A stretch of 64,000 nucleotides of DNA from Cupriavidus basilensis (lineage in GTDB: Bacteria > Pseudomonadota > Gammaproteobacteria > Burkholderiales > Burkholderiaceae): positions 124,001-188,000 of the forward strand of contig NZ_CP062805.1 of NCBI RefSeq assembly GCF_008801925.2. The letters are read 5' to 3'. Numbering within the stretch: position 1 is the stretch's first letter; each line of letters begins with the position of its first letter. This document shows positions 456 to 24,279 of the stretch, piece after piece. The position numbers were made by a program, and so were the translations under genes. The notes under the pieces were generated by a model, which searched no databases, was not told the origin of the DNA, and saw only the letters and a program-made list of their open reading frames with translations.

Positions 456-471
456 TGGCACCGAAGTTGCA
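456..471 (+). promoter_or_regulatory. Sigma-54 (-24/-12) promoter
   Basis: TGGCACCGAAGTTGCA matches the sigma-54 consensus TGGCAC-N5-TTGCW with the canonical 10-bp gap between GG and GC. It predicts a transcript start near 483 and a leader of about 63 nt before the ATG at 546. It also argues against the GTG at 489 as the start of the receptor gene. The adjacent sigma-54 activator at 18246 is the obvious regulator. Confidence 0.8.
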
Positions 472-545
472 GATAGCGGGTATGGACGGTGAATGTGTTC
501 GAGGAAAACGCTGTCCGTCATGATAACGAACGATTGGAGACATCC

Positions 546-1745
546 ATGAATGCACCCGCACTGCGCTTCGGCGCACTCGCCGCACTGACGGCGATTTGCC
601 AGTTGGCTTCCGCCGCGGAGCCATTCCGCATCGGCGCCTTGGTAGATATGTCCGGGGTCTATTCCGGCATCGGCGGTCCTGGCGGTATCGCAGCCGTCAA
701 GATGGCGGTTCAGGACTTCGGCGGTAAGGTTCTGGACCGGCCCATCGAGGTGTTGGGTGCCGACTACCAGAACAAGGTCGATATTGCTTCCACCCGTGCC
801 CGGGAGTGGTATGACCGGAACAACGTCGAAATGATCATCGAGTCCACCGACTCGGCCTCGGCGCTGGCGCTGCAGAAACTTGGCGAGAGCAAAAAGAAGA
901 TCACGATCTTCGCGGGTTCCGCCACTACGGAACTGACGGGCAAGCAGTGCTCGCCTTACGGTATTCACTACGTGTACAACACCTACGCGCTGGCAAACGG
1001 CACGGCACGCGCAATCCTGGAAGAAGGCAAGAAGGACTGGTTCTTCATCACCGCCGACTATGCATTCGGCCATTCGCTCGAGTCGAATGCCATCAATGTG
1101 GTGGAGCAGCTGGGCGGGAAGGTTGCCGGCAAGGTCCGCCATCCGCTTGCGGCATCGGACTTCGCATCGTTCCTGCTGCAGGCACAGGCGTCAAATGCGC
1201 AGGTGATTGCATTGGCCAACGCGGGACGCGATACACAGAATGCGGTTCGCCAGGCTTCGGAGTTCGGACTCGGGACTGGCAAGCAGGTGGTGGCGCCGCT
1301 GCTGATTTTCGATAGCGACCTGAAAGGCATGGGCCTGAAGGCGGCGCAGGGACTGCAGTTCACCACGGCATTCTACTGGGACTACAACGACGAGACCCGC
1401 GCTTTTGGCAAGAAGTTCTTCGCACAGACCAAGATGATGCCGACCATGGTTCAGGCCGGTATGTACTCCGCGGTGACGCACTACCTGAAGGCGGTACAGG
1501 CGGCAGGTAGCGCGGACCCCGACAAGGTCATGGCGAAGATGCGCGCGACGCCGGTCAATGACTTCTTTGCCAAGGACGGCCGCATTCTGGCAAACGGGCT
1601 GATGGCGCATGACATGTACCTGGCTGAAGCCAAGAAGCCGTCTGAGTCCAAGGGCGAATGGGACCTGCTGAAGATCCGCAAGATCATCCCCAAGGACAAG
1701 GCCTTCGAGCCACTGGAAAAGAGCGCCTGTCCGCTCAAGGGCTGA
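546..1745 (+). CDS. LIV-type ABC transporter substrate-binding protein
   Basis: Periplasmic receptor of the branched-chain amino acid/aromatic acid ABC class (Peripla_BP_6), 399 aa. A signal peptide covers the first ~23 residues (hydrophobic run ending in QLASAAE), followed by the typical opening FRIGALVDMSGVYSGIGG. The ATG at 546 is chosen because GGAGA lies 6 nt upstream and the signal peptide begins directly; an in-frame GTG at 489 would bury it. First gene of a five-gene importer operon from the sigma-54 promoter at 456. Receptors of this class next to CoA-catabolic operons often bind aromatic or alicyclic acids; the ligand here is unknown. Confidence 0.9.
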   Translation: MNAPALRFGALAALTAICQLASAAEPFRIGALVDMSGVYSGIGGPGGIAAVKMAVQDFGGKVLDRPIEVLGADYQNKVDIASTRAREWYDRNNVEMIIESTDSASALALQKLGESKKKITIFAGSATTELTGKQCSPYGIHYVYNTYALANGTARAILEEGKKDWFFITADYAFGHSLESNAINVVEQLGGKVAGKVRHPLAASDFASFLLQAQASNAQVIALANAGRDTQNAVRQASEFGLGTGKQVVAPLLIFDSDLKGMGLKAAQGLQFTTAFYWDYNDETRAFGKKFFAQTKMMPTMVQAGMYSAVTHYLKAVQAAGSADPDKVMAKMRATPVNDFFAKDGRILANGLMAHDMYLAEAKKPSESKGEWDLLKIRKIIPKDKAFEPLEKSACPLKG

Positions 1746-1881
1746 CGCACTAGGGAACTTGAGGTGGCCAGGCAGCTGGCCACGCTTCTACGCACTCTCC
1801 GGGCGTCTTTCCACGGCCGCTGCGTCGCCCCGGCCGCGCGGAAGACGCTTCCTTTTTCTCCAGATTGGCTTTGCTCCTGTT

Positions 1882-2652
1882 ATGCCGGATTTCATTCTGC
1901 AGACGCAGCGGTTGTCCAAGTCATTCAGAGGCTTTACTGCCGTCAGTGAAGTCGACCTGAATGTACGCCGCGGCTCGATCCACGCCTTGATCGGGCCGAA
2001 CGGCGCGGGCAAGACCACCTGCTTCAACCTGCTGACCAAGTTCCTGGAGCCGACCGCCGGCACCATTCTGTTCAACGGCATCGACATCACGCGCGAAAAG
2101 CCAGCGCAGATTGCGCGGCGGGGCGTGATCCGCTCGTTTCAGATTTCCGCGGTGTTCCCGCACCTGACCGTACGCGAGAACGTACGCATCGGCCTGCAGC
2201 GTCAACTGGGTACTGCCTACCAGTTCTGGCGCAGCAAGCGTTCGCTCGACGTGCTAAATGCCCGCGCGATGGATTTGCTCGAACAAGTCGGGCTGACCGA
2301 GTTCGCCGAGACCATCACTGTCAACCTGCCTTACGGCCGCAAGCGTGCGCTCGAGATCGCGACCACCCTCGCGATGGAGCCGGAACTGATGCTGCTCGAT
2401 GAGCCGACGCAGGGCATGGGCCATGAGGACGTGGATCGCGTGACCCAGCTGATCAAGCAGGTTTCTGCCGGCCGCACGATCCTGATGGTCGAGCACAACA
2501 TGAATGTCGTGTCGTCGATTGCCGACAAGATCACCGTACTGCAACGCGGTGCGATTCTGGCCGAGGGCCCTTACGCCGAAGTCTCGAAGGATTCGCGCGT
2601 CATGGAAGCCTACATGGGTACGGCCGACGCCGAGCTGCAAGGCGCGCATTGA
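1882..2652 (+). CDS. LIV-type ABC transporter ATP-binding protein (LivG-like)
   Basis: Cytoplasmic ATPase subunit, 256 aa, the usual LivG length. Walker A GPNGAGKTT lies near residue 37, a signature-like PYGRKRALEIA near 155, and Walker B LMLLDEPTQGM follows. The ATG at 1882 (MPDFILQTQRL) is preferred because upstream in-frame sequence is not LivG-like, although its ribosome-binding site is weak. A 136-nt gap separates it from the receptor gene. It is expected to pair with the LivF-like ATPase downstream, whose Walker A lysine is replaced, so this subunit may carry most of the hydrolysis. Confidence 0.88.
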   Translation: MPDFILQTQRLSKSFRGFTAVSEVDLNVRRGSIHALIGPNGAGKTTCFNLLTKFLEPTAGTILFNGIDITREKPAQIARRGVIRSFQISAVFPHLTVRENVRIGLQRQLGTAYQFWRSKRSLDVLNARAMDLLEQVGLTEFAETITVNLPYGRKRALEIATTLAMEPELMLLDEPTQGMGHEDVDRVTQLIKQVSAGRTILMVEHNMNVVSSIADKITVLQRGAILAEGPYAEVSKDSRVMEAYMGTADAELQGAH

Positions 2653-2665
2653 GGGGGAAAAAGTA

Positions 2666-3391
2666 ATGGCAAACGACAACACCCCGGCCCTCGAGATCAG
2701 GGACCTGCATGCCTGGTACGGCGAGTCGCACATCCTGCATGGTGTGGACCTGACCGTCAATCGTGGCGAAGTGGTCACGCTGCTTGGGCGCAATGGTGCC
2801 GGGCGCACGACAACGCTGCGCGCGATCATGGGACTCACCGGTACGCGCAAGGGATCGATCAAGGTCAACGGCCACGAAACCATCGGCCTGCCGACACACA
2901 AGATCGCGCACTACGGCATTGGCTACTGTCCCGAAGAGCGGGCGATCTTCTCAAGCCTGTCCTGCGAAGAGAACCTGCTGCTGCCGCCGGAACTCAAGAG
3001 CGCCAATGCGGGAAAAGGCATGAGCAAGGCCGAGATCTACGACATGTTCCCGAACCTGATGGAGCGCAAGCAGAGCCAGGGCACGCGCCTCTCCGGCGGT
3101 GAACAGCAGATGCTTGCCGTGGGCCGGATCTTGCGTACCGGGGCGAACCTGCTCCTGCTTGACGAGATCTCGGAAGGGCTGGCGCCTGTGATTGTGCAGG
3201 CCCTGGCGCGCATGATCTTGATGCTCAAGAAGAAGGGCTACACGGTGGTAATGGTGGAGCAGAATTTCCGATTCGCCGCGCCGCTGGCCGACCGCTTCTA
3301 CCTGATGGAGCACGGCGCGATCGTCGAGCGCTTTGCCGCCGACGAGCTGCAGGACAAGATGCCGGTGCTCAATGAGCTGCTCGGCGTGTAA
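2666..3391 (+). CDS. LIV-type ABC transporter ATP-binding protein (LivF-like) with Walker A Lys-to-Arg change
   Basis: Second ATPase subunit, 241 aa. The start at 2666 follows a strong GAGGGGGAAAA ribosome-binding site, 13 nt after the LivG-like stop. The signature LSGGEQQML and Walker B LLLLDEISEG are intact, but Walker A reads GRNGAGRTT: the P-loop lysine is Arg47, codon CGC at 2804-2806. Going from a Lys codon (AAA/AAG) to CGC takes at least two base changes, so a single sequencing error is unlikely. The paralogue at 35359 has GRNGAGKTT. Loss of this lysine usually cripples ATP hydrolysis, so one of the two composite sites may be degenerate. Confidence 0.88.
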   Translation: MANDNTPALEIRDLHAWYGESHILHGVDLTVNRGEVVTLLGRNGAGRTTTLRAIMGLTGTRKGSIKVNGHETIGLPTHKIAHYGIGYCPEERAIFSSLSCEENLLLPPELKSANAGKGMSKAEIYDMFPNLMERKQSQGTRLSGGEQQMLAVGRILRTGANLLLLDEISEGLAPVIVQALARMILMLKKKGYTVVMVEQNFRFAAPLADRFYLMEHGAIVERFAADELQDKMPVLNELLGV

Positions 3392-3405
3392 CGAGGGGAA
3401 GTGCA

Positions 3406-4293
3406 ATGAACCTTGATTTTGGAATTCCCCTGCCGGCTTTGATGTCGCAGTTGCTGCTCGGCCTGGCGAATGGCGCGTTCTACGCAATGCTAAGCTTGGG
3501 GTTGGCGGTGATCTTTGGATTGCTCAACGTGATCAACTTCGCGCACGGTGCGCTGTTCATGCTGGGCGCTCTGCTGGCGTGGGCCGGCATGGAGTACGTC
3601 GGGCTGAGCTACTGGGCAATGCTGCTGCTGTCGCCCCTGGTCATCGGCTTGTTGGGCGTGCTGATCGAAAAGACGATGCTGCGCTGGATCTACAAGCTAG
3701 ACCATATTTACGGTCTGCTGCTCACGCTGGGTATTACGCTGGTGATCGAAGGCGTGTTCCGGTCAATCTACGGCGTCTCGGGCCAGCCTTACTCCGCGCC
3801 CGAGCTGCTGCAGGGCGCTACCGACGTTGGCTTTATGCACCTGCCGAACTATCGCGCCTGGGTCGTGGTGGCTTCCATCACGGTCTGCCTGGGCACGTGG
3901 TTCGTGATCGAGAAGACCAAGCTGGGCGCCTACCTGCGTGCGGGCACCGAGAACCCCAAGGTCGTCGAGGCGTTCGGCGTCAATGTGCCGCTGATGGTCA
4001 CCCTGACCTACGGCTTCGGCGTGGCACTGGCTGCGTTCGCCGGGGTGCTGGCCGCGCCGGTGATCCAGGTGTCGCCGCTGATGGGACAGAACCTGATCAT
4101 CGTGGTGTTTGCAGTTGTAGTGATCGGTGGAATGGGCTCGATCCTCGGCGCCATCGTCACCGGTCTGGGCCTGGGCGTGATCGAGGGGCTGACCAAGGTG
4201 GTCTACCCGGAAGCGTCGTCAACGGTGGTCTTTGTTGTAATGGTGATTGTCCTGCTGCTTCGTCCGGCGGGGCTGTTTGGCAAGGAAAAGTGA
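3406..4293 (+). CDS. LIV-type ABC transporter permease (LivH-like)
   Basis: Inner-membrane permease, 295 aa, almost wholly hydrophobic with about eight predicted membrane segments. The LivH hallmark GLLNVINFAHGALFMLGA lies near residue 45 and GGMGSILGAIVTGLGLGVIE near residue 245. The start at 3406 has a GAGGGGAAG ribosome-binding site and lies 14 nt after the LivF-like stop. Its stop overlaps the next permease start (TGATG), indicating translational coupling. It should form the transmembrane heterodimer with the 4293 product. Confidence 0.92.
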   Translation: MNLDFGIPLPALMSQLLLGLANGAFYAMLSLGLAVIFGLLNVINFAHGALFMLGALLAWAGMEYVGLSYWAMLLLSPLVIGLLGVLIEKTMLRWIYKLDHIYGLLLTLGITLVIEGVFRSIYGVSGQPYSAPELLQGATDVGFMHLPNYRAWVVVASITVCLGTWFVIEKTKLGAYLRAGTENPKVVEAFGVNVPLMVTLTYGFGVALAAFAGVLAAPVIQVSPLMGQNLIIVVFAVVVIGGMGSILGAIVTGLGLGVIEGLTKVVYPEASSTVVFVVMVIVLLLRPAGLFGKEK

Positions 4294-5327
4294 TGACCGA
4301 ATTCTCTCTCCCTTCAACGGTGACCTCGGCGGCCGGTGGGGACGCGTTGGTGCGAAGCCGGGCGCCGGCATACATCTCCATCGTGCTGGTTGCACTGCTG
4401 TTGCTGGCGCCCCATCTTGGCTTCTATCCGGTCTTCGTGATGAAGATCCTGTGCTTTGCGCTGTTTGCCGCGGCATTCAACCTGCTGCTCGGCTACACCG
4501 GCTTGCTGTCGTTCGGCCATGCCGCCTTGTTCGGCGGCGCGGGCTACATAGCCGGGTATGCGATCAAGAACTGGCATGTCACGACGGAGGTCAGCCTGCT
4601 GATCGGCGTGGCAACCGCCGTAGCGATTGGATTTCTGATGGGCGTGCTGGCAATCCGCCGCCAGGGCATCTACTTCGCCATGATCACGCTCGCGCTGGCA
4701 CAGATGTTCTTTTTCATTTGCCTGCAGACACCGCAAACGGGCGGCGAGGACGGCTTGCAAGGCGTTCCGCGCGGCGCGTTGTTCGGGGTGATCGACCTGT
4801 CATCGGATGTCAGCTTCTACTATGTCGTTGTCGCCGTCTTTGTCGCAGCGATGGTGCTGATTGCCCGCATAGTCAGTTCCCCGTTTGGCCAGCTCCTCCA
4901 GGCGGTCAAGGAGAACGAGAGTCGCGCCATCTCGCTGGGCTACAGTACAGACCGCTTCAAGCTGATGGCCTTCGTGCTGTCGGCCGCGCTGGCGGGACTG
5001 GCGGGAGCGATGAAAGCGCTGGTGCTTGGCTTTGCGACGCTGGCCGACGTCCATTGGACCATGTCGGGGGCAGTCATCCTGATGACGCTGGTGGGCGGGA
5101 TGGGGACGTTGAGCGGGCCAGTCGCCGGTGCGCTCGTCATTGTGATCCTGGAGAACAAGCTGGGCGAGATAGGTGCCGGACTTGCCAATGTCACCGGGAT
5201 CGACTGGTTCGCATCCCTTGGCGAGTCAGTGACGCTCGTGACCGGTGTCATTTTCATTCTGTGCGTTCTGTTGTTCCGGAAAGGACTGGTTGGGGCGGTC
5301 CTTGGCCGGCTTCCGTCCGGACGATGA
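4293..5327 (+). CDS. LIV-type ABC transporter permease (LivM-like)
   Basis: Second permease, 344 aa, multi-spanning. The family motif AAFNLLLGYTGLLSFGHAAL lies at about residues 60-80, and GGMGTLSGPVAGA is present near residue 270. The start ATG at 4293 shares a base with the stop of the preceding permease gene. It is the last gene of the importer operon; the next gene on the other strand ends at 5410, so the two operons converge across about 80 bp. Confidence 0.92.
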   Translation: MTEFSLPSTVTSAAGGDALVRSRAPAYISIVLVALLLLAPHLGFYPVFVMKILCFALFAAAFNLLLGYTGLLSFGHAALFGGAGYIAGYAIKNWHVTTEVSLLIGVATAVAIGFLMGVLAIRRQGIYFAMITLALAQMFFFICLQTPQTGGEDGLQGVPRGALFGVIDLSSDVSFYYVVVAVFVAAMVLIARIVSSPFGQLLQAVKENESRAISLGYSTDRFKLMAFVLSAALAGLAGAMKALVLGFATLADVHWTMSGAVILMTLVGGMGTLSGPVAGALVIVILENKLGEIGAGLANVTGIDWFASLGESVTLVTGVIFILCVLLFRKGLVGAVLGRLPSGR

Positions 5328-5341
5328 TTGCTAGAAAGACG

Positions 5342-5365
5342 GCCGGCAGCACGCGGTCGGCCGGC
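5342..5365. terminator. Possible hairpin between convergent operons
   Basis: GCCGGC occurs at 5342-5347 and 5360-5365 and can pair as a 6-bp GC stem across a 12-nt loop. It lies between the convergent ends of the importer operon and the long minus-strand operon. There is no clear U tract, so its role as a bidirectional terminator is inferred from position only. Confidence 0.35.
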
Positions 5366-5409
5366 TAAGTCATCGCTACGGGGCGCCGCGGGCAGGTTGT
5401 TCGCCCTTG

Positions 5410-6012
5410 CTAGCGGCCATTCAGCAGACGATGCAGCAGTGAAGCGTTCACCCCGAATCGATCGAAGATCGCATCTTCGAAGCGAGCGCGATCCGGGAAG
5501 CCATAGGATCCGACCCTTGCAGCTTCCCGGTCGGCGCCGGCGAGGTCAAACAGCGCGCGCATCAGGCGCTGCGTCGCCACCAGATCGACAAAGCTCTCGC
5601 CTTCACTCAACAAGGTTCGGGACAATTGACCCGCCTGATCGATGCGGAGCTCTCGCGACGCCGATGCGAGCCGCCACGGCTTTTGCGGTGCCTGGAACAC
5701 CGCCATAGCCAGGCTACTCGCAATTGGCTTGTGCGATCGCTCTTCTACCCGTATCCGCTGACCGGACCACGGCAGCTGCCGGAACGCTACGCGGGCGCGC
5801 TCTGCCAGCACAAGGTGTGGCGACTCGAGCGGGCGGATCGCGTGCCATCCACCGTCGTGGGTTGCACGCATCTGACCCGGCACGTTGAGCTCACAATCAC
5901 CTTCGATGACCTCTGCAATCACGGGGAACGGGAAACGCAGCCCGCGCAGATGGACACGCGCATACGCTGGCGATTGGAGAATGAGCGAAAGGGGAGCGAC
6001 CTCTGGCTGCAC
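5410..6012 (-). CDS. AraC-family transcriptional regulator
   Basis: About 200 aa from a GTG at 6012; a TTG at 6042 overlapping the previous gene is an alternative, and neither has a strong ribosome-binding site. The last ~80 residues fit the AraC double helix-turn-helix: LSRTLLSEGESF matches the first recognition region and GFPDRARFEDAIFDRFGV the second. The N-terminal ~115 residues resemble a small ligand-sensing domain but are not recognised specifically. It is the final gene of the long minus-strand operon, so it would be made when the pathway is on. Shorter than usual AraC proteins (250-330 aa). Confidence 0.6.
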   Translation of the reverse strand: MQPEVAPLSLILQSPAYARVHLRGLRFPFPVIAEVIEGDCELNVPGQMRATHDGGWHAIRPLESPHLVLAERARVAFRQLPWSGQRIRVEERSHKPIASSLAMAVFQAPQKPWRLASASRELRIDQAGQLSRTLLSEGESFVDLVATQRLMRALFDLAGADREAARVGSYGFPDRARFEDAIFDRFGVNASLLHRLLNGR

Positions 6013-6038
6013 TGCGGTCTTTGATGGTCGGGGGGCGA

Positions 6039-7583
6039 TCAAGCCTCGTCCGTCAGCAGCGACAGGCCCAGGCCGGCGCGGCGCCACAGCCACGGGCTCG
6101 GGCGGTAGCGCATGTCGCCGGTCAGGGCTTCCATGTTGCGCAGCGTCTCCAGCACCAGTTGCGGGCCGACGGCGTCGCCCAGGGCCAGCGGGCCCTTCGG
6201 GTAGCCCAGGCCCAGGTTCACGGCCAGGTCGATGTCCGCGGGCGAGGCAATGCGCTGCTGCGCGATATCGCTGGCGATGTTGATGATGCAGCAGAGCACG
6301 CGCTGGGCCACGAAGCCGGCCGAGTCGCGGATCACCGTGACCGGCACGCCGTCGCTCGCGAACAGGCCGTGCGCGGCGTCGCGCGCGGCGGCGCCAGTGG
6401 CCGGCGTGGTCATCAGCGTGCGGCGCTTGGTGGCCTCGAACGGCAGGAGGGTGTCGATGGCCACCGTGCGCGAGGCGTCCAGGCCCTGCTGGAGCGCGGT
6501 GGTGGTCGCGTCCAGGCCCAGCGGCGTGACGACGATCAGTGCCTCGGCGGAAGGCTGGTCGCCACTTTCAGGCGTGATACCGAGCGCGCCGAGCAGCTTC
6601 GTCACCATGGCATGGCCGCGTTCGCTGGCGCGGCTGACCCACACGCTGGCCGGACGGGCCGACGGGACCGCGGCCGCGGCCGTGGCCGGGACCTGCTTCT
6701 GGCCATCCACGTAGCGGTAGAAGCCGGCGCCGGCCTTTCGGCCGACCAGCCCGCCAACCGAGCGGATCGCCGTGATCGGCGACGGGCGGTAGCGCGGCTC
6801 CTGGTAGAACTGGTTGTAGATCGATTCCATCACCGGGTGCGACACGTCCAGCCCGGTCAGGTCCATCAGCTCGAACGGCCCCATGCGGAAGCCGGCCTGC
6901 TCGCGCATGATGTTGTCGATGTCGGCGAACTCCGCCACGCCTTCCTGCGCGACCTTGATGCCTTCGATATTCATGCCGCGGCCGGCATGGTTGACGATAA
7001 AGCCCGGCATGTCCTTGCAGCGCACCGGCGTATGGCCCATGCGGCGCGACAGCGCCATCAGCGCATCGCCCACGGCCGGGTTGCCGGACAGGCCGTCGAT
7101 GACCTCGACCACCTTCATCAGCGGCACCGGGTTGAAGAAGTGGTAGCCGACCACGCGGCCCGGTTCCTTTGCGCCCACGGCGATCGCGGTGATCGACAGC
7201 GACGAGGTGTTCGAGGCGATGACCACGTCAGGACGCAGCACGGCTTCCAGCTTCGCCACGAGATCTCGCTTCACTTCGAGCTTCTCGACGATGGCTTCCA
7301 CCACCATGTCGCAGCCGGCCAGGTCTTCCAGCGCGCCGCACGGCTTCACGCGGCCCAGCGTGGCCTGGGCGTCAGCCGCCGAGATCTTGCCCTTTTCGGC
7401 CAGCTTGCCGAGCGTATCCTGCAGGTACTTGCGTGCCGCTTCCACCGCTTGCGGGTTGGCGTCGTACAGGTTGACGGTCAGGCCTGCCTGCGCGGCGATC
7501 TGGGCGATGCCGCGGCCCATGGCGCCGGTGCCGACGATGCCCAGTGTCTGGATAGCGGTGATCGAAGGAGAGGTTGTGTTCAT
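6039..7583 (-). CDS. 3-hydroxyacyl-CoA dehydrogenase, two-domain PaaH type
   Basis: Oxidises (3S)-hydroxyacyl-CoA to 3-oxoacyl-CoA with NAD+; 514 aa. The Rossmann motif GTGAMGRGIAQ is near residue 14, the HFFNPVP segment follows, then a first C-terminal domain (DMPGFIVNHAGRGMNIEG). A second copy at residues ~380-500 contains DSAGFVAQRVLCCIINIASD. This layout is that of the PaaC/PaaH family, which acts on dicarboxylyl-CoA esters such as 3-hydroxyadipyl-CoA, a fit for a pathway ending in pimelyl-CoA. The ATG at 7583 begins MNTTSPSITAIQTLG; upstream codons are not family-like. Compare the split version at 9815-11357. Confidence 0.9.
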   Translation of the reverse strand: MNTTSPSITAIQTLGIVGTGAMGRGIAQIAAQAGLTVNLYDANPQAVEAARKYLQDTLGKLAEKGKISAADAQATLGRVKPCGALEDLAGCDMVVEAIVEKLEVKRDLVAKLEAVLRPDVVIASNTSSLSITAIAVGAKEPGRVVGYHFFNPVPLMKVVEVIDGLSGNPAVGDALMALSRRMGHTPVRCKDMPGFIVNHAGRGMNIEGIKVAQEGVAEFADIDNIMREQAGFRMGPFELMDLTGLDVSHPVMESIYNQFYQEPRYRPSPITAIRSVGGLVGRKAGAGFYRYVDGQKQVPATAAAAVPSARPASVWVSRASERGHAMVTKLLGALGITPESGDQPSAEALIVVTPLGLDATTTALQQGLDASRTVAIDTLLPFEATKRRTLMTTPATGAAARDAAHGLFASDGVPVTVIRDSAGFVAQRVLCCIINIASDIAQQRIASPADIDLAVNLGLGYPKGPLALGDAVGPQLVLETLRNMEALTGDMRYRPSPWLWRRAGLGLSLLTDEA

Positions 7584-7694
7584 GATGTCCGGATCGCAGG
7601 AGATGGTGGGCGACGCCGCAAAGCACTGCAGCCGTGAGGAGGAACCCACGGCTGCAGACGGGCATGGCATTCGCCCAGGGTTGTTCGGTAAGCC

Positions 7695-14254: not shown

Positions 14255-14256
14255 GG

Positions 14257-16735: not shown

Positions 16736-16747
16736 CGTGTCTCCTGT

Positions 16748-17977
16748 TTAGACGATTTCTGAGTCGATGAGGCCCGCGATGCATGTCGCGGACATGGAAA
16801 GTTCTTCCCTGAGAATGCGTTCGGTGTGCTCGCCCAGCGCCGGCGGCGGGTTGCGGAGCACGGCACTGGCGCCGTCGAAGCGGATGCCCAGGCCAACCTG
16901 CGGCACCAGGCCGGTAATGCCCTGGGTGGCGAAGAACATGCCGCTCTCGCGCAGCGGGATGTCGTCGGCCAGTTGGTCAATGCTGTTGATGGGGCCGGAC
17001 GGGATGCGGTGTTGCGCAAACAGCGCAAGCCAGTGCTGGCGTGGTTGCGTCGCAAGGAGTTCGGCAATGGCCTGCACGATCGCCTGGCGCGCCTCGCGCC
17101 GGCGGGCGTTGGTCTCGAATCCCGGTTGCCGCGCGTAGTCCGGACGCCCGACCGCCGTCCAGAAGCGCTGCCAGATGGCGTCGTTGCCGAGTCCCAGCGT
17201 GATGGGGGAATCCGCGGTATCGAAGACCTGATAGATCGCGATCACGGAATCAGTCCCGCCCGAGCGGTTCGGCGCCTCGCCGGAACCCAGATAGGGCACG
17301 ATCCGCGGCGCCATGAACCGCGCCATCGTCGCCACCATCGACACATCGATCTGCTTTCCGGCCCCCGTGCGTTCCCGTTCGAACAGCGCGGCCAGCGTGG
17401 CCATGGCAATGTCCTGGCCGGACAGCAGATCGGCGGCAGGGGTGCCGACCTTCTGGGGCGGGCGATCCGCCTCGCCGGTCAGGTGCATGACTCCTGAGTA
17501 GCCCTCTGCGATGAGGTCGTAGCATGGCAGGTCGGCGCGTTCGCCCTCGAGCCCGAACCCGGTCACGGACACATGGATCAGCCTGCCGTTGATGGCCTTG
17601 AGCGTCGTGTAATCGAGGCCGAGCTTTTCCTGCACACGCTGGGCGGTGTTGAGGACGACGACGTCGGCATGGCGCACCAGTTCATGCGCCACCCGCTGGC
17701 CCTCCGGGCGTGTGAGGTCGATGGTCATGCTCTGCTTGTTGCGGTTCATGCTCAGGAACCACAGGGACTCACCGTCCAGGAACGGCGGCCCCCAGCTGCG
17801 TGTATCGTCGCCGCCATGGCGCTTTTCCACCTTGACGACCTCGGCCCCCAGGTCGGCGAGCAGGAGCGTGCCATAAGGGCCAGCCACCGAGGTGGTGAAG
17901 TCGAGCACGCGAATACCCCGCAGGCAGGAAAGGCCTGCGCCGGGTGTCTGGAACGGGAGTGTCTTCAGTGTGTCCAT
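16748..17977 (-). CDS. Family III CoA-transferase (CaiB/BaiF), first gene of the catabolic operon
   Basis: 409 aa. GIRVLDFTTSVAGPYGTLLL and AEVVKVEKRHGGDDTRSW are typical of the family; the catalytic Asp lies in LPCYDLIAEGYSG near residue 155. It begins the long minus-strand operon, about 23 nt after the start predicted from the sigma-54 promoter at 18011-18026. Only distantly similar to the transferase at 8697. It probably transfers CoA to the incoming acid from a pathway product such as a dicarboxylyl-CoA, alongside the ATP-dependent ligase. Confidence 0.9.
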   Translation of the reverse strand: MDTLKTLPFQTPGAGLSCLRGIRVLDFTTSVAGPYGTLLLADLGAEVVKVEKRHGGDDTRSWGPPFLDGESLWFLSMNRNKQSMTIDLTRPEGQRVAHELVRHADVVVLNTAQRVQEKLGLDYTTLKAINGRLIHVSVTGFGLEGERADLPCYDLIAEGYSGVMHLTGEADRPPQKVGTPAADLLSGQDIAMATLAALFERERTGAGKQIDVSMVATMARFMAPRIVPYLGSGEAPNRSGGTDSVIAIYQVFDTADSPITLGLGNDAIWQRFWTAVGRPDYARQPGFETNARRREARQAIVQAIAELLATQPRQHWLALFAQHRIPSGPINSIDQLADDIPLRESGMFFATQGITGLVPQVGLGIRFDGASAVLRNPPPALGEHTERILREELSMSATCIAGLIDSEIV

Positions 17978-18010
17978 TTCAGGTCGGATCTACGCAAGTG
18001 ACCGACATAC

Positions 18011-18026
18011 TGCAAAGCGTGTGCCA
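18011..18026 (-). promoter_or_regulatory. Sigma-54 (-24/-12) promoter of the catabolic operon
   Basis: Read on the minus strand this is TGGCACACGCTTTGCA: a perfect TGGCAC, the correct 10-bp GG-GC gap and a perfect TTGCA. The predicted start near 18000 leaves a leader of about 23 nt before the CoA-transferase ATG at 17977. The sigma-54 activator gene is divergent, starting at 18246. Confidence 0.85.
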
Positions 18027-18061
18027 ACACATGGCGCGAAATTTGCGGCTACGCGAGTGAT

Positions 18062-18079
18062 TGCCTGGGGGCTTAGGCA
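18062..18079. promoter_or_regulatory. Inverted repeat TGCCT-N8-AGGCA
   Basis: TGCCT at 18062-18066 and AGGCA at 18075-18079 form a short inverted repeat between the sigma-54 promoter and the activator gene. It could bind the activator or another regulator. Five-base arms are weak evidence alone. Confidence 0.25.
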
Positions 18080-18190
18080 CTGCCTGCGTTAGCGGCCTTG
18101 CGGGCGGATCGGAAGGCCGACGAACCGGGGGGAAACTGCTTAGAATGAGACTGTCTTTGCAGTGTCCTTGCCTGCCATCGAGAAGGCAAT

Positions 18191-18211
18191 TGTGTAGTCG
18201 CCGAATACACA
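18191..18211. promoter_or_regulatory. Perfect inverted repeat TGTGTA-N9-TACACA (candidate activator site)
   Basis: TGTGTA (18191-18196) and TACACA (18206-18211) are perfect 6-bp arms about 165 bp upstream of the sigma-54 -24 element on the minus strand, the usual place for an enhancer. It is also 35 bp upstream of the activator gene, so it could mediate autoregulation. The right part, CGAATACAC, recurs upstream of the importer operon at 405-413. Confidence 0.5.
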
Positions 18212-18245
18212 GCGTTCCGTAAAACAGACGAACCGTGGTGGAGAC

Positions 18246-19928
18246 ATGAAACGAGAATCAGAGGGCGTCCTCGTACTCGATGCCGAGGGCAACACAACAT
18301 TCGCCAGCGGACTCGGCAGGGATTCGCTGGTCGCCAAGTCGCTGGGCCGGCTCTGGCAGAACCGCGACCGCGTGCCGCTCAGGCGGATGTCGGCCATGGC
18401 CGACCTGGAGCGCCCACTGACGGTCGCGGCGATCCCGACGCGCGATTCAGTGTGCTTCCTGATCTTTGCCGTGCAGGAAGGCGATGAGCTGAGCGAGTTC
18501 CTGGCAAGCGTGGATGCGGCGCCGGACATCCTCAGGCATTTCATTACCGATCCCTACAAGGCGATGGTCGTGGTGGATACGTCGGCGCGCATCACTTACA
18601 TGAGCCCGGTCCATGAGCGCTTTTTCGGCCTCAAGCATGGCGAGGCGATCGGGCGGGATGTGACATCGGTGATCGAGAACACGAAGCTGCAGGAGGTGGT
18701 AGCGACCGGCAAGGGGCAGGTGGCCCAGTTGCAGGAGATGAACGGCGTGACGCGCGTGGTGTCGCGGCTGCCGATCTTCGATCGCAACAAGCGCGTCGTG
18801 GCAGCCATCGGGCAGGTGATGTTCAAGGGGCCCGAGGCCATGCGCGAACTCACCGTGGAGCTTGCCAAGGTCAAGCAGGAACTCGATTTCTATCGCCGGG
18901 AGTTGTCCGGGATCCGCAACCGGAGCTACGGCCTGGATCAGATCGTGGGCAGCAGCGATGCCGTGCGACGGCTGAAGGAGGACATCCTGCGCGTGGCGCC
19001 ATTGGATGTGCCGGTATTGCTGGCGGGCGAGAGCGGGACCGGCAAGGAGATGGTGGCGCACGCGATCCATATGCTAAGCCCGCGCAGCGACAAGCCGTTA
19101 GTGCTGGTGAACTCGGCGGCGATGCCGCCCAACCTGGTCGAGAGCGAACTGTTTGGCTATGAGCCCGGCGCTTTCACCGGCGCGGACCGAAAAGGCCGCA
19201 AGGGCAAGTTCGAGGCCGCCGATACCGGCACGCTGTTTCTCGATGAAATCGGCGACATGCCGATCGACATGCAGGTCAAGCTGCTTCGCGTGCTGCAGGA
19301 TGGCCAGTTCGAGCGTGTCGGGGGCGATCGCGCCCGGCATTCGGATTTCCGCCTGATATCGGCCAGCAATCGGGACTTCAAGGCGATGATCGCCAACTCG
19401 AGCTTCCGGCTGGACCTGTTCTATCGGATCAGCGCGGTGACGCTGCGGCTGCCGGCATTGCGCGACCGTCTGGAGGACATTCCGGAGCTGGCCGATACCT
19501 TCCTGGAGGCGTTTGCGATCCGGCACGGCGCGCCGAAGAAGTCGATTGCCGAATCCGCGATCCGCTTCCTCCAGTCGCGCGCCTGGCCGGGAAATATCCG
19601 GCAACTGCAACATGCGATCGAGCGCGCGGCAATCTTCTGCGACGGACCGGTCTTGTCGGTCGCAGAGTTCGGCAGTATGGAAGGCGCTGAGCAGACGCTG
19701 GCGTGGCGCCAGAGCGGAGCCCCGGCGGGCGCCGCGGAAAAGTCGCGGCAGCCCGATATCCGTGAAGCGAAGGAACGGCTGGAATCGGCGTTGATTTTGG
19801 AAGCCATGCGCCGTACCGGTGGTAACAAGAAGCGCGTCGCCGAAGAACTTGGGATCTCGCGTTCGTACCTCTACAAGCGCCTGAGCATGATGGAGGAAGA
19901 AAAGAGCGAGGTGCCGGCGCCGCGCTAG
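18246..19928 (+). CDS. Sigma-54-dependent transcriptional activator (PAS-AAA+-Fis)
   Basis: 560 aa enhancer-binding protein. A PAS domain at ~100-195 is followed by a short coiled linker (ELAKVKQELDFYRREL) and the AAA+ domain: Walker A GESGTGKE at 261-268, GAFTGA at 308-313, Walker B LFLDEIGD near 330. The C-terminal Fis-type helix-turn-helix is NKKRVAEELGISRSYLYKRL. There is no receiver domain, so it probably senses a ligand, perhaps through the PAS or the ~95-residue N-terminal region. GGTGGAGA precedes the ATG. Sigma-54 promoters flank it at 456, 18011 and 24264, making it the likely master regulator of Region A. Confidence 0.93.
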   Translation: MKRESEGVLVLDAEGNTTFASGLGRDSLVAKSLGRLWQNRDRVPLRRMSAMADLERPLTVAAIPTRDSVCFLIFAVQEGDELSEFLASVDAAPDILRHFITDPYKAMVVVDTSARITYMSPVHERFFGLKHGEAIGRDVTSVIENTKLQEVVATGKGQVAQLQEMNGVTRVVSRLPIFDRNKRVVAAIGQVMFKGPEAMRELTVELAKVKQELDFYRRELSGIRNRSYGLDQIVGSSDAVRRLKEDILRVAPLDVPVLLAGESGTGKEMVAHAIHMLSPRSDKPLVLVNSAAMPPNLVESELFGYEPGAFTGADRKGRKGKFEAADTGTLFLDEIGDMPIDMQVKLLRVLQDGQFERVGGDRARHSDFRLISASNRDFKAMIANSSFRLDLFYRISAVTLRLPALRDRLEDIPELADTFLEAFAIRHGAPKKSIAESAIRFLQSRAWPGNIRQLQHAIERAAIFCDGPVLSVAEFGSMEGAEQTLAWRQSGAPAGAAEKSRQPDIREAKERLESALILEAMRRTGGNKKRVAEELGISRSYLYKRLSMMEEEKSEVPAPR

Positions 19929-19970
19929 GCGGTTGCGCGGGCCGGCGGTGCAAGCGTCGCTAGTGCCCGC

Positions 19971-21029
19971 CTACGGAATGATCCGGTTTGCGCGCAGTTC
20001 GTCGAACTGGCGCAGGAACATTTGCTCCGAATCCACGGCTTCGCTGAAGCCATGCTGGCGAGCCTTGGTGGTGGACGAAATGACGTCGAACTCCGGGGTG
20101 AAGACGAAGTTTCCGTACTTCCAGCCCACCAGTTGCTCGTACGGGATCGGCCGCAGGTCGTGCTCCCTGACCAGTCGCTCCCAGAGCGGTCCCTTGTCGG
20201 CCATCATGTGGACCAGATCGATCTTCTGGGCCGCAGCGGTTTCCATGTCGAAGTAGCGCGCGATGGCGGGCCACAAGTCCTGCCACCGGAAAATGTCGCC
20301 GTTGGTGATGTTGAACGGCTCGTTGGCAGCGGCCGGATCGGTTGCCATCCACTTGCAGGCGCGTGCCAGCAAGCCGCTGTCGGTCACGTTGTACAGCGCG
20401 CGCGCGTTGGCCTCGGAGCCCGGATGGCGCAACGGCAGCCCCAGTGCCTTGGAGATAGTGGCGTACACGGCGAGGACCATGACGAGATTCATCGGGTTGC
20501 CGATGGCAAAGCCGCAGATGCCGTGGGGGCGCGCGGCAGACCACGTCCACGCCTTGCCTTTCTGGCGCTGGGCGATGAATGCCTGCTGGTCATAGTAGAA
20601 GTTGGGCGGCATGTGACCCGGGTCGGTTTCCTTTGCGGGCGTCTTGAACGGTCCGAGATGATTGCCATACCACTTGGTGCCGTGCATCAGGTTGACGTGC
20701 TGGAGCCGGTCCGCCACCGGCTCGATGGCATCCATCAGGTTCGCGAGCAATGCCATGTTCGGCGCCACCATTTCGGCCCAGCCGGCCTTCTCGATGTAGG
20801 CAGAGAAGAAGATATGGGTGACCTCCCGCAGCCCGCCGAGCTTGGCCTTCGTATCGCCGGCGTCAAGCAGGTCGGCCGGGATGTGGCGGTACTCGCCGGT
20901 GATATCTGGCTCGCGACGCGAAACGGCGATCACATCCCATTCCGGGTCGGCGGCAAGCAGCCGCAGCAGGTTCCGTCCTACCACGCCGGTGGCGCCGGCA
21001 ATCAGTGCGGTCTTCCTTGGTTGTGTCAT
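19971..21029 (-). CDS. PRISE-like SDR (progesterone 5-beta-reductase/iridoid synthase fold)
   Basis: 352 aa atypical SDR. NAD(P) binding is by GATGVVGRNLLRLL near residue 11. HGTKWYGNHLGPF near 115 and NFYYDQQ near 143 carry the Lys and Tyr typical of PRISE enzymes. It also has AARPHGICGFAIGNPMN, common in this group. Members reduce activated C=C bonds such as enones and enals. It is the last gene of the MFS operon and converges on the sigma-54 activator (42-nt gap). The substrate is unknown; an enone intermediate of alicyclic or terpenoid breakdown is possible. Confidence 0.82.
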   Translation of the reverse strand: MTQPRKTALIAGATGVVGRNLLRLLAADPEWDVIAVSRREPDITGEYRHIPADLLDAGDTKAKLGGLREVTHIFFSAYIEKAGWAEMVAPNMALLANLMDAIEPVADRLQHVNLMHGTKWYGNHLGPFKTPAKETDPGHMPPNFYYDQQAFIAQRQKGKAWTWSAARPHGICGFAIGNPMNLVMVLAVYATISKALGLPLRHPGSEANARALYNVTDSGLLARACKWMATDPAAANEPFNITNGDIFRWQDLWPAIARYFDMETAAAQKIDLVHMMADKGPLWERLVREHDLRPIPYEQLVGWKYGNFVFTPEFDVISSTTKARQHGFSEAVDSEQMFLRQFDELRANRIIP

Positions 21030-21044
21030 GGTGTCTTTTGCTGG

Positions 21045-21761
21045 TTATCGAATGGCCCGGCCGCCGTCGACGCTCAGGGACGCTCCGGTGATGAAGGCGG
21101 CTTCCGCGCTGCACAGGAAGGCCGCCGCCGCTGCCTGGTCTTCCGCGGTCGAGATTCGCTTCAGGGGATGCAACGCCAGCCGCTCCTGGGCCCGATCCGC
21201 GGTGTTGCCATGAATGTTGCGGAACATCGGGGTATCGACGGTGCCGGGGCAGATCGCGTTGACGCGAATGCCGTCGTTGGCCAGTTCCAGTGCCAGGGCG
21301 CGGGTCAGGGAATCCACGCCGCCCTTGCTGGCGGCGTAAGCGCTGTGACGCAGGCTGCCGCGCAGCGCGTCGATGGAGGCCACATTGAGGATGCACGGCG
21401 AGTCGCTGCGCTTCAGCAGCGTCAGCATGGTCCGGCAGCCAAGGAAGGCGCCGGTCAGGTTGACGCCGATGACTTCGTTCCAGTCCGCCAGGCTGGTGTC
21501 CTCCAATGGCGCCTCGCGCAGGATGCCGGCATTGTTCACCAGCACGTCGAGTTGCCCGACTTCGGTACCGATACGATCTGCCAGCCTTTGCCAGTCCGCT
21601 TCGGAGCGGACATCACCGCTTACGGCGCGCTCGCGATCCTGCGGCATGCGGTCAAATCGGTATACGGTCCAGCCGTCCCGTTCGAAGCGTTCGGCAATGG
21701 CAAGGCCAATGCCAACGGCCGCCCCGGTAACCAGCGCCGTTCTTGGTTTCGCTTCAGGCAT
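21045..21761 (-). CDS. SDR-family oxidoreductase
   Basis: 238 aa classical SDR. TGAAVGIGLAIAERF is near residue 10 and VNNAGIL near 77; the catalytic Ser is in NVASIDALRG and Tyr-Lys in YAASKGGV near 147; the C-terminal FITGASLSVDGGRAIR is standard for FabG-like proteins. The ATG at 21761 follows AGAGGAAC and overlaps the upstream AroQ-like gene by 8 nt. The gap to the PRISE gene is 15 nt. It probably oxidises or reduces a hydroxy/keto intermediate in the same pathway. Confidence 0.88.
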   Translation of the reverse strand: MPEAKPRTALVTGAAVGIGLAIAERFERDGWTVYRFDRMPQDRERAVSGDVRSEADWQRLADRIGTEVGQLDVLVNNAGILREAPLEDTSLADWNEVIGVNLTGAFLGCRTMLTLLKRSDSPCILNVASIDALRGSLRHSAYAASKGGVDSLTRALALELANDGIRVNAICPGTVDTPMFRNIHGNTADRAQERLALHPLKRISTAEDQAAAAAFLCSAEAAFITGASLSVDGGRAIR

Positions 21762-22197
21762 GTTTGTTCCTCTTGTGAATGACCTTCTGGATGGCAACCA
21801 GCGCAAGCCGGTAGGAGTCGACACCAAGCCCTGTCACCATGCCTGCGCTCTCGGAAGCGGTAACAGAATGCATGCCGCGGGCGTCGATATTGCTCATATG
21901 CACTTCGATGTAGGGCAGCGGCACCGCTTTCAGGCAATCGCGCAAGGCATGACCCGCATAGAGAAAGCCCGCGGGATTCATGACAAGACCGTCTACTTGC
22001 TCGCGTGTGGCGCGATAAATGGCGCTGATGGCTTCACCTTCGACGTTGGTGTAGAGGATGTCGAGTTGCATGCCGAGCCCCACGGCGTCCGCGCGCAGGA
22101 TGTCGTCCAGTTCGGCGGCGGTGGTGGTGCCATAGATTTCCGGCTGGCGAAAACCCAGATACTCCATGTTGGCACCCTGGATCAGCAGAATTCGCAT
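21754..22197 (-). CDS. AroQ-like (type II dehydroquinase fold) protein with altered active site
   Basis: 147 aa, the usual AroQ length. ILLIQGANMEYLGFRQPEIYG aligns with the AroQ N-terminus and keeps Asn10, Arg17 and the catalytic Tyr22; EVHMSNIDAR keeps the second catalytic His (100) and Arg107. However, the NPGAxTH element reads NPAGFLY, so the histidine after it is Tyr80, and the segment after Arg107 is about three residues short and loses the next arginine. Dehydroquinate dehydration therefore looks doubtful. It lies between an MFS operon start and SDR genes, not among aro genes. A related dehydratase or hydrolase role is possible. Confidence 0.78.
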   Translation of the reverse strand: MRILLIQGANMEYLGFRQPEIYGTTTAAELDDILRADAVGLGMQLDILYTNVEGEAISAIYRATREQVDGLVMNPAGFLYAGHALRDCLKAVPLPYIEVHMSNIDARGMHSVTASESAGMVTGLGVDSYRLALVAIQKVIHKRNKHA

Positions 22198-22829
22198 TAC
22201 AAGTCCTCCTGGTTCAGTGAGCACAGCAGACGATAGGTGCCGACGTAGGCGTCCGGGAACTGCCGGCGCAGCGTGTTCGCCACGCGATTTGCCACTTCGG
22301 GCCGCAGGTATTCCAACACCAGGCAGGCGTTGATCTTCACGTCACCGCCGCGCAGTGCTTCTTCTGCGGAGATCTCCTTCGTGTCGGGCTCCGCCGAGAT
22401 CCACATCTCGGAATGCGTGTGCGCCGCGTCGACCTCCAGCATGCCAACGGCGTCGCGCAGCCGCGGGTAGGCATCGGCTGCATTCAGCGCAACGGTCAGC
22501 ACCACGCTGCCGCGACTCGCCCCGCGGAGATCGCGCCGCTCGCAGACCGTGCGGGACATGTTGGTGAAGCCGTCCTGCATCATGGAGATGGTGCGCGCGG
22601 TGGGGTGGGCGAGCCGTTCGCGATATGCCGCCGACCTCAGCACCTCGGGATGGACCACCTCGTAGGTGGTCAGGAACTGCCGCGAAGCGCAGATGGCTTC
22701 GAACCGGCGACCCGTCAGGAAGCCGGCGATGCCAAGCCGCTCCGGCAGGTGTTCCTCCTGATACCAGGATTCGTAGGCTGCTGCGCGCGACGCATTGCAG
22801 TCATTCCAGATAGCCAGGATCCCGCTCAT
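22197..22829 (-). CDS. Dimeric alpha/beta-barrel family protein, function unknown
   Basis: 210 aa. The start MSGILAIWNDCNAS is followed by YESWYQEEHLPERLGIAGFL, the W-Y-x-x-E-H-L-P-E-R pattern of EthD/DUF4286-like ferredoxin-fold proteins. The second half (DVKINACLVLEYLRPEVANR) may be a second barrel half. Its ATG at 22829 overlaps the MFS stop (ATGA) and its stop overlaps the AroQ-like start (TAATG), so it is tightly coupled. Such proteins are often small ligand-binding or cyclase/isomerase-type enzymes in catabolic operons. No catalytic residues are assigned. Confidence 0.7.
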   Translation of the reverse strand: MSGILAIWNDCNASRAAAYESWYQEEHLPERLGIAGFLTGRRFEAICASRQFLTTYEVVHPEVLRSAAYRERLAHPTARTISMMQDGFTNMSRTVCERRDLRGASRGSVVLTVALNAADAYPRLRDAVGMLEVDAAHTHSEMWISAEPDTKEISAEEALRGGDVKINACLVLEYLRPEVANRVANTLRRQFPDAYVGTYRLLCSLNQEDL

Positions 22830-24184
22830 GCGCGTGCTCCGGCTTGCGCTTCGGCCGACCTGAGTTGCCGGGGCAGCCCCAATGCCATGCACGCGGCGAT
22901 CACGAACGTTCCTGCCAGGAACACCAGGCCAACGGTGTCGGTGTGGAAGGTCTGGCGGAACACGCCGAGGATGTATGGGCCGAAGAAGCCGCCGATATTG
23001 CCGACGGAATTCACGAGCGCCAGAGCAACGGCCGCCCGTGCGCCGGCAAAGTGCTGTGACGGAAAGCTGTAGAACAGGGGCACGGCTGCCTGCATGCAGG
23101 CAGCCATGCATAGCCCGGCGAACGCCAGGATAGCGCTCTGCGCGAATGCGGACATGGTCAATCCGATCGCCGCCAGCATCAGGATGGCGCTGAGCACGCC
23201 GGCGCGATTCTTTTCGCGCGGCGGAATGCGCGACAGCGTGAAGAGCGCCATGGCGCAGAACACCCAGGGCACCGCCGAGAGCAGTCCGGCCTGGACCGCG
23301 CTGACCGAGAAGCGCAGCTTGATGATCTGCGGCAGCCAGTAGGTGACGGCGTAGAAGCCGATGAGCATGGACGTGTACTGGAAGCAGTAGTACCACGCCG
23401 CGCGGGTCTTCATGACCGAGGCGATGGCGCTCAGGCCGTGACTGTCATCGGCCCCGCTGTTCCGGTCGCTGCGGATCGCCGCGATGAGCGTCTGCTTCTC
23501 GCGGGCCGTCAGCCATCGCGCCTTCTCAGGGGTGCTGGCCATGGCGAAACAGGTGATGATGCCCACCACCACGGCCAGGGCGCCCTCGATGATCAGGACC
23601 CACTGCCAGCCGGAAACGCCAAGGATCCCGTCCATGGTCAATAGGGCGGCGGTCATGGCGCTGCCCAGCGCCAGTGAAATGGGAATGCCGATCTGGAATA
23701 CCGCAAATGCCCTGGTCAGATAGCGGATCGGCACGAACAGACTGAGATAGAAGAGAATGCCGGGGTAAAAGCCGGCTTCGCCGACCCCAAGCAACAGGCG
23801 GAAGATATAGAGCGACGTGGCACCGGTGACCAGGGATGTGCCCATGCAGATCAGGCCCCACGTGACCATGATCCGGGCGATCCAAAGCTTGGCGCCGTAA
23901 CGTTGCAGAGCAATGTTCGATGGGATCTCGAACAGCACATAACCGATAAAGAAGAGTCCCGAGGCCAGACCGAACATTGCCGGCGTCAGGCCGAGCGCGG
24001 CTTGCATGTCGGGGCCGGCAACGGAGAGGTTGGTGCGGTCGACATAGGACACGAAGATCCCGATCAATGCCAGAGGCATGATCTTTCGGATGACTTTCGA
24101 TACGATGCGCTGCTGTTCTGCGATGCTCTCATCAACCGCATCGGGACTAAGTGCCCCGGGAATGGACTGAAGCGATGTCGTCAT
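22826..24184 (-). CDS. MFS transporter, anion:cation symporter (ACS) type
   Basis: 452 aa, about 12 membrane segments. FVSYVDRTNLSVAGPDMQAALGL near residue 45 and RLLLGVGEAGFYPGILFYLSLF near 128 are hallmarks of the ACS family (phthalate, hexuronate, tartrate and similar carriers). The ATG at 24184 has a GGAGGA ribosome-binding site and lies about 68 nt after the start predicted from the sigma-54 promoter at 24264. First gene of a five-gene operon. It is probably a second uptake route for an organic acid used by the same regulon. Confidence 0.9.
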   Translation of the reverse strand: MTTSLQSIPGALSPDAVDESIAEQQRIVSKVIRKIMPLALIGIFVSYVDRTNLSVAGPDMQAALGLTPAMFGLASGLFFIGYVLFEIPSNIALQRYGAKLWIARIMVTWGLICMGTSLVTGATSLYIFRLLLGVGEAGFYPGILFYLSLFVPIRYLTRAFAVFQIGIPISLALGSAMTAALLTMDGILGVSGWQWVLIIEGALAVVVGIITCFAMASTPEKARWLTAREKQTLIAAIRSDRNSGADDSHGLSAIASVMKTRAAWYYCFQYTSMLIGFYAVTYWLPQIIKLRFSVSAVQAGLLSAVPWVFCAMALFTLSRIPPREKNRAGVLSAILMLAAIGLTMSAFAQSAILAFAGLCMAACMQAAVPLFYSFPSQHFAGARAAVALALVNSVGNIGGFFGPYILGVFRQTFHTDTVGLVFLAGTFVIAACMALGLPRQLRSAEAQAGARA

Positions 24185-24263
24185 GTCTCCTCCATTGTTG
24201 GAGTGGATGTTGGATAGTTAGGACGGAAGAAGCTCACCGGAAATCCCTCCGCCGGGGAAGCCT

Positions 24264-24279
24264 CGCAACATCGATGCCA
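24264..24279 (-). promoter_or_regulatory. Sigma-54 (-24/-12) promoter of the MFS operon
   Basis: On the minus strand it reads TGGCATCGATGTTGCG, with exact GG-GC spacing and two mismatches to TGGCAC-N5-TTGCW. Predicted start near 24252, 68 nt before the MFS ATG. A TACATGTTTGC at 24361-24371 resembles TACATGTTCGC at 369-379 upstream of the importer's sigma-54 promoter. A 19-bp palindrome (TGGCGCGCG, G, CGCGCGCCA) lies further upstream at 24389-24407. Confidence 0.65.

Follow-up and report, generated by a model that had tools for sequence, protein, structure and literature searches.

Our analysis of a 64-kb stretch of Cupriavidus basilensis DNA (hereafter the window, G000:C3:124001-188000) strongly supports a shared sigma-54 regulon of two operons, one for an importer (546-5327, + strand) and one of 11 genes for coenzyme A (CoA)-dependent metabolism (the CoA operon, 6039-17977, - strand). 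The promoters of both operons are accompanied by the same conserved enhancer at fixed spacing, and both operons co-occur with a gene for a sigma-54 activator, or enhancer-binding protein (18246-19928, + strand), that adjoins the CoA operon. The window belongs to a 425-kb plasmid contig, C3, of an 8,942,610-bp genome in which one rpoN gene was found. A 20-kb query from it (5000-25000) matches, at 100% identity, plasmid pMTS2 of Cupriavidus sp. P-10 (NZ_AP025173.1; genome announcement of the strain, PMC6256540), which is typed as conjugative, MOBP. The annotation of pMTS2 was transferred to window coordinates and the mapping was verified. An initial annotation of this DNA had joined three operons into one regulon, the third being that of a major facilitator superfamily (MFS) transporter. 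For the importer and CoA operons the proposal is borne out by the shared enhancer, its spacing and the co-occurrence; for the MFS operon the support is good but comes from a single plasmid. The 22 genes that it counted agree with our tally of five importer genes, 11 genes of the CoA operon, the activator gene and five genes of the MFS operon.

Promoters of the -24/-12 type require enhancer-binding proteins. Three motifs with exact GG-N10-GC spacing had been reported, and all three are present: the promoter of the importer operon at 456-471 (+ strand, TGGCACCGAAGTTGCA), that of the CoA operon at 18011-18026 (- strand, TGGCACACGCTTTGCA) and a sigma-54-like promoter of the MFS operon at 24264-24279 (- strand, TGGCATCGATGTTGCG). 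The first two, described earlier as perfect, indeed match TGGCAC-N5-TTGCW exactly, and the third has two mismatches. Exact matches are rare, with 16 in the whole genome and five for a reversed-pattern control, and the Poisson chance of finding two of them inside one 64-kb window is about 0.006. When up to two mismatches were allowed, the window held 42 matches against a shuffle mean of 38.75. Since this frequency is at chance level, the degenerate-motif count was dropped as support, and the MFS motif, uninformative by itself, needs support of another kind. Our first sigma-54 weights were set by hand from a consensus and later checked with a matrix built from 29 Salmonella sites printed in PMC3844500. 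Ranking both strands of the contig with this matrix placed the CoA-operon and importer sites in a tie for first, sites at C3:241658 and window position 40784 fourth and fifth, and the MFS site 25th. The third-best site, C3:197388-197403 (- strand, TGGCATTAGTCTTGCA), stands before an IS630 transposase gene on the pMTS2 map and has no enhancer-like partner in our list of promoter-enhancer pairs.

Both leading promoters are conserved. That of the importer was found in all five close loci (the window, G035, C. necator UYPR2.512, C. numazuensis and Cupriavidus sp. LEh25), and a -24/-12 site precedes the CoA operon in all eight close loci compared. The same is true of the operon in four of four genomes of another genus, whose activators are 54-56% identical to that of the window.

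The element shared by these promoters, which is absent from the initial annotation, is a 17-bp palindrome, TGT-N11-ACA, with a core of approximately TGTNNTCGNCGAANACA. One copy, the importer enhancer or upstream activating sequence (UAS), lies at 356-372 (TGTCTTCGGTAAATACA), 100 bp from the importer promoter. Another lies at 18193-18209 (TGTAGTCGCCGAATACA), in the intergenic region between the activator gene and the CoA operon and 182 bp from the operon promoter; no strand is assigned to these sites. A matrix trained on nine enhancer sites from other species, all of them different from every window site, placed the copy at 18193 first (22.4) and the copy at 356 second (22.0) on the 425-kb contig. 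The spacing between enhancer and promoter was 100-101 bp in five of five close importer loci and 180-190 bp in eight of eight close CoA-operon loci, strains A5-1 and 16 included; in the four genomes of the other genus, operon enhancer sites lie at about 70 and/or 100 bp. We also aligned the region between the CoA operon and the activator gene from six loci (the window, LEh25, C. numazuensis, G035, UYPR2.512 and B. multivorans). Mean column identity was 0.90 for the operon promoter, 0.90 for the palindrome (18191-18211) and 0.80 for a further, divergent sigma-54 site at 18032-18047, compared with 0.69 for the whole non-coding stretch.

Pairing of the two kinds of site along the contig points in the same direction. 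An enhancer-like site (score at least 10) was present 40-300 bp upstream of 7 of the 25 sigma-54 sites scoring at least 14.7; shifted sites gave a mean of 0.89 (P 0.0005, 2000 shifts) and column-shuffled matrices a mean of 1.33, with a maximum of 5 in 60. At strict cut-offs (enhancer 20, promoter 18) two of five sites were paired, against means of 0.004 for shifted sites and 0.05 for column-shuffled matrices (maximum 2). Because some of the column-shuffled matrices also yielded pairs (at most 5 versus 7 real ones at the loosest setting, at most 2 versus 2 at the strictest), single weak pairs are no proof. The enhancer is likewise associated with the activator family. A site scoring at least 14 was found within 480 bp of the match start upstream of all 16 non-paralog family members tested, namely six close orthologues and ten members at approximately 48-56% identity, with five of the loci having supplied training sites. 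Among the other sigma-54 activators of the genome, such a site occurred in 1 of 17 upstream regions (2.5 kb each), and the best upstream score for the second activator of the window was 8.8.

The activator is a protein of 560 amino acids with a GAFTGA loop, present in the translation, and a Fis-type helix-turn-helix (HTH). Pfam matches were to Sigma54_activat (PF00158, 219.4 bits) and HTH_8 (PF02954, 46.4 bits). The Pfam scan matched no PAS model at E <= 1e-5; the accessions PF00989 and PF13426, which we take to be those of PAS domains, are listed for many of its relatives. Among 7998 candidates scored, 1248 matched at E <= 1e-100, and the 120 records listed of these matches carry no specific family name. 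C. necator SHC 2-3 encodes a 100% identical protein.

Co-occurrence ties the activator to the two operons. At E limits of 1e-150 and 1e-140, an orthologous activator was found in 6 of 60 genomes, our own included (the others being G025, G019, G017, G035 and UYPR2.512, which is G029), and an importer binding protein at least 86% identical to that of the window was found in exactly these six. The activator, the operon and the importer occur together in genomes with the local activator, the importer lying on a different contig in G019. In UYPR2.512 (L025 14628-20000), the matches to the activator, to the CoA ligase and to CaiB1 are each split into two pieces that lie in different frames, a pattern in which decay and sequencing error are indistinguishable.

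A second addition to the initial annotation is the divergent sigma-54 promoter at 18032-18047 (+ strand, TGGCGCGAAATTTGCG), which faces the activator gene. Its -24 element and that of the CoA operon are 5 bp apart, and this distance is 5-6 bp in all six loci where an activator gene adjoins the operon. The divergent site is present in each of these six loci, scoring 13.4-16.2 with the hand-set weights, and decayed in two of two loci without the gene (strains A5-1 and 16; 4.7 and 7.6). Since the divergent site has decayed where the activator gene does not adjoin the operon, transcription of that gene is its most likely role. In A5-1 and 16 the CoA operon keeps its promoter and enhancer, and in each stretch 9 of the 11 operon genes of the window were located, all but CaiB2 and the quinone-oxidoreductase-like gene. 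At E <= 1e-100 the two strains hold only a protein 82-83% identical to the window activator, encoded 7-10 kb from the promoter, and a relative at 49-51%.

The case for the MFS operon (19971-24184, - strand) is of a different kind. A weak enhancer-like site (24365-24381; score 10.5) lies 101 bp upstream of its promoter, which is the importer-type distance. The neighboring stretch AACATGTACGTGGACACAATTGTC is identical at 20 of 24 bases to the importer enhancer of UYPR2.512, 2 bp off register; among 20,000 random plasmid stretches, the share that matched equally well was 5e-5. An MFS gene of B. multivorans was considered as independent support and set aside, as its product has no significant BLASTP match to the MFS protein of the window; the gene has a sigma-54-like site scoring 14.8 and an enhancer-like site of only 6.9. 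From the evidence of this one plasmid type, the MFS operon is a likely member of the regulon.

The regulon probably extends beyond three promoters. A candidate sigma-54 promoter at 25597-25612 (- strand, contig rank 13), with an enhancer-like site 78 bp upstream (25675-25691), precedes an aldo-keto reductase gene (24483-25505). Another, at 40784-40799 (+ strand, score 18.6, contig rank 5), lies 47 bp before the ATG at 40847 of a class II aldolase gene (annotated from 40841) and has enhancer-like sites at 40545 and, weaker, at 40648; it precedes a gene group for a class II aldolase, an MFS protein and an alkene reductase. Two enhancer-like sites accompany the promoter at C3:241658, at distances of 80 and 100 bp.

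Based on these observations, we infer a mechanism that covers DNA binding, activation, the inducer, feedback and cross-regulation. The one-component activator, with an N-terminal sensor region, an AAA+ motor and its Fis-type HTH, would bind palindromes resembling TGTNNTCGNCGAANACA. It would sense an inducer, likely a carboxylic acid of alicyclic or branched structure or the corresponding CoA thioester, oligomerize on the enhancer and, through DNA looping, open sigma-54 RNA polymerase at the promoters of the importer and the CoA operon, with enhancers at 100 and 182 bp, and probably also at that of the MFS operon, where the distance is 101 bp. The activator would probably boost its own synthesis from the divergent promoter. 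With -24 elements only 5 bp apart, simultaneous occupancy of the two back-to-back promoters may be impossible. A paralog with an identical HTH, encoded elsewhere on the plasmid, would probably bind the same enhancers and provide a second input. Taken as a whole, this model of a sigma-54 regulon on a catabolic plasmid appears to us likely to be correct. Its most elaborate form, in which two paralogous enhancer-binding proteins share one TGT-N11-ACA enhancer at six or more promoters across the plasmid, with back-to-back promoters that exclude each other, is tentative and we are inclined to doubt it. If that form were true, a single enhancer that lies upstream of one of the two promoters and downstream of its partner would set a trade-off between synthesis of the activator and of the enzymes.

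Several observations weigh against the model. The divergent promoter of this genome is weak, with a Salmonella-matrix score of 8.1 (contig rank 291), although those of C. numazuensis and G035 score 18.7. A homologue of the importer protein (56% identical; G046, L103) has neither the promoter motif nor the enhancer. Strong enhancer-like sites also occur without a promoter. Two of them, 20 bp apart and scoring 17.8 and 16.2, lie at 46788 and 46808 (46788-46824) in the window between alcohol dehydrogenase and catalase genes, with no good sigma-54 site nearby, and an exact match lies on the chromosome at C2:630720. Nine loci with chromosomal matches were scanned (L085 and L087-L094), and a sigma-54-like site within 300 bp (score 13.9) was present only at L091. 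For pairing, the sigma-54 cut-off of 14.7 was chosen when the MFS score of 14.8 was already known. The MFS stretch shares fewer of its 24 bases with the other importer enhancers (19 in G035, 17 in the window, 17 in LEh25 and 12 in C. numazuensis), and the null given above was computed for the best comparison, 20 of 24, alone. Among the 60 genomes, the MFS protein passes E 1e-140 only in its own genome and G025, and among 399 genomes of the order, our own included, E 1e-130 was passed only by our own. Since the thresholds used yield no MFS orthologue beyond this plasmid type, footprinting is impossible. Together with the chance frequency of its two-mismatch motif and the low score of its enhancer, this makes room for a smaller regulon of the importer and CoA operons, with the MFS promoter a chance match and the MFS operon controlled separately. 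We consider this unlikely, given the importer-like enhancer distance and the 20 of 24 bases held in common with the importer enhancer of another strain. It is very improbable that all the motifs are GG-N10-GC matches that arose by chance and that transcription of the operons depends on other sigma factors. Degenerate matches are common in this DNA, as noted, but exact ones are rare genome-wide, the motifs are conserved in orthologues, sigma-54 sites pair with enhancers, and the divergent site decays without the activator.

The paralog presents the most substantial alternative. The initial annotation recognized only one activator. This is correct for 456-24279; the window itself contains another at 60455-62416 (- strand), and the plasmid contig carries, at C3:232759-234414 and 90 kb from the activator gene, a paralog that is 82% identical. 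The HTH stretch RRTGGNKKRVAEELGISRSYLYKRL is identical in the two proteins of this genome, and approximately 7 kb separate the paralog gene from the C3:241658 promoter. Actual control of some targets, or of all of them, could lie with the paralog. Strains A5-1 and 16 keep promoter and enhancer of the operon with a paralog-type protein as the sole close activator found beside the 49-51% relative, which suggests that the paralog type can probably use the same enhancer. The HTH of the A5-1 and 16 proteins, however, differs from that of the window activator at two residues, with ISRSYLYKRL the same. Moreover, the enhancer was found upstream of none of six paralog genes, the activator, operon and importer go together in genomes with the local activator, and the divergent promoter is seen only where that activator is present. 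That the paralog is the main regulator, or that both activators share control through one enhancer type, is a reading that we hold to be rather less probable than its opposite. The outline of the earlier interpretation holds, but its assumption of only one activator for the plasmid does not. About 15 kb from the paralog gene there is also a partial second copy of CoA-operon genes (L006 9886-11761, C3 approximately 215.9-217.8 kb), comprising two 3-hydroxyacyl-CoA dehydrogenase genes and a piece of CaiB2 in two frames, approximately 80-89% identical.

The genes of the regulon can be assigned from translations, domain matches and the pMTS2 annotation. The importer operon encodes a periplasmic binding protein (546-1745; Pfam Peripla_BP_6), two ATPases (1882-2652 and 2666-3391) and two permeases (3406-4293 and 4440-5327, the latter possibly from 4293), all on the + strand. 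For the binding protein, the start at 489 given for pMTS2 falls a few nucleotides past the predicted transcript start; the ATG at 546 looks likelier and is preceded by a GGAG stretch that is also found in G035 and UYPR2.512. Upstream, a short reading frame (62-367) resembles by eye a piece of electron transfer flavoprotein (ETF)-ubiquinone oxidoreductase, which makes it a candidate for such a fragment. The pMTS2 annotation also contains a hypothetical gene (5410-6042, - strand).

The 11 genes of the CoA operon, all on the - strand and in an order conserved in relatives, were assigned from translations, with NCBIfam for seven and Pfam for three. They encode CaiB1 (16748-17977), a BadI/MenB-like hydratase (15956-16735), an acid-CoA ligase (14257-15939), an enoyl-CoA hydratase (13484-14254), a short-chain dehydrogenase/reductase (SDR; 12736-13491), an acyl-CoA dehydrogenase (11367-12533), two proteins of the 3-hydroxyacyl-CoA dehydrogenase family (10482-11357 and 9815-10480), CaiB2 (8697-9809), a quinone-oxidoreductase-like protein (7695-8684) and a further 3-hydroxyacyl-CoA dehydrogenase (6039-7583). 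An acid-CoA ligase, two class III CoA-transferases, an acyl-CoA dehydrogenase, two enoyl-CoA-hydratase-like proteins, an SDR and three 3-hydroxyacyl-CoA dehydrogenase proteins form a set that would suit the degradation of a cyclic or branched acid by a beta-oxidation-like route that includes ring cleavage. In the NCBIfam scan of 7 of the 11 proteins, no equivalog cut-off was reached among the matches listed, and one protein reached a subfamily cut-off (3-hydroxyacyl-CoA dehydrogenase). Assignment of 15956-16735 to BadI (TIGR03210) was rejected at 219 of 467.6 bits, below the curated cut-off; MenB models gave similar scores (242.5 and 213.6 bits), also below their cut-offs. PDB sequence searches assigned three proteins to known families and indicated no substrate. 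The operon also contains a near-perfect palindrome of approximately 160 bp (fold z-score -8.7), found once in the genome, in the gap between the SDR and acyl-CoA dehydrogenase genes (12534-12735), which measures about 15-50 bp in the orthologues measured. On pMTS2 at 320-326 kb, approximately 15 kb upstream of the importer, lies another alicyclic-acid-like cluster, one gene of which is annotated badI.

The MFS operon, assigned from Pfam and the pMTS2 annotation, encodes on the - strand the MFS transporter (22826-24184), a DUF4286-family protein (22197-22829; pMTS2 annotation, no Pfam match), a type II dehydroquinase (21754-22197), an SDR (21045-21761) and a PRISE-like reductase (19971-21029). 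No sigma-70-like promoter was found in window 5300-24800, and no known RNA matched Rfam at gathering score in window 1-26000.

The literature search, made within one library, listed no paper that, judged by title and abstract, describes this activator, enhancer or operon. Similar to this system, NifA/VnfA-type regulons are governed by enhancer-binding proteins; the NifA upstream site is also of the form TGT...ACA, and the targets of VnfA1 likewise include divergent sigma-54 promoters and an ABC substrate-binding protein (PMC10590331, PMC9542535). The targets differ here, being those of CoA-dependent acid catabolism, and the NifA site is TGT-N10-ACA (PMC10590331), one base shorter than the TGT-N11-ACA of this plasmid. 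Membership in NifA was rejected on this spacing and on a TIGR01817 score of 312.9 of 528.85 bits. The best-scoring NCBIfam model for the activator is that of PrdR-type activators (NF041552, 374 bits), and PrdR membership was rejected because the curated cut-off of 795 bits was missed; AtoC membership also fell short of its cut-off. The one-component sigma-54 regulons that comparative genomics predicted in Desulfovibrio follow the same logic of a conserved UAS beside a conserved -24/-12 element, with predicted autoregulation and a few UAS downstream of the promoter (PMC4641369). They belong to another bacterial group with other activators, and the term acyl-CoA does not occur in the main text of that report (PMC4641369). 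Models from cyclohexanecarboxylate degradation (bad/ali) are third-best for the CoA ligase (270.4 of 792.3 bits) and second-best for the acyl-CoA dehydrogenase (318.6 of 650) and the BadI-like protein (219 of 467.6), all far below the curated cut-offs.

In conclusion, as judged from sequence comparison, the regulon adds a new and well-supported example to an established class of gene switch. The palindrome provides a predicted DNA site for an activator family that bears no specific name in the records listed, and it may be used to find targets in Burkholderiales genomes. The acid-degradation genes of a conjugative plasmid become testable as one regulon. The finding also raises the question of how paralogous activators may act on one enhancer and how overlapping divergent sigma-54 promoters would operate together.

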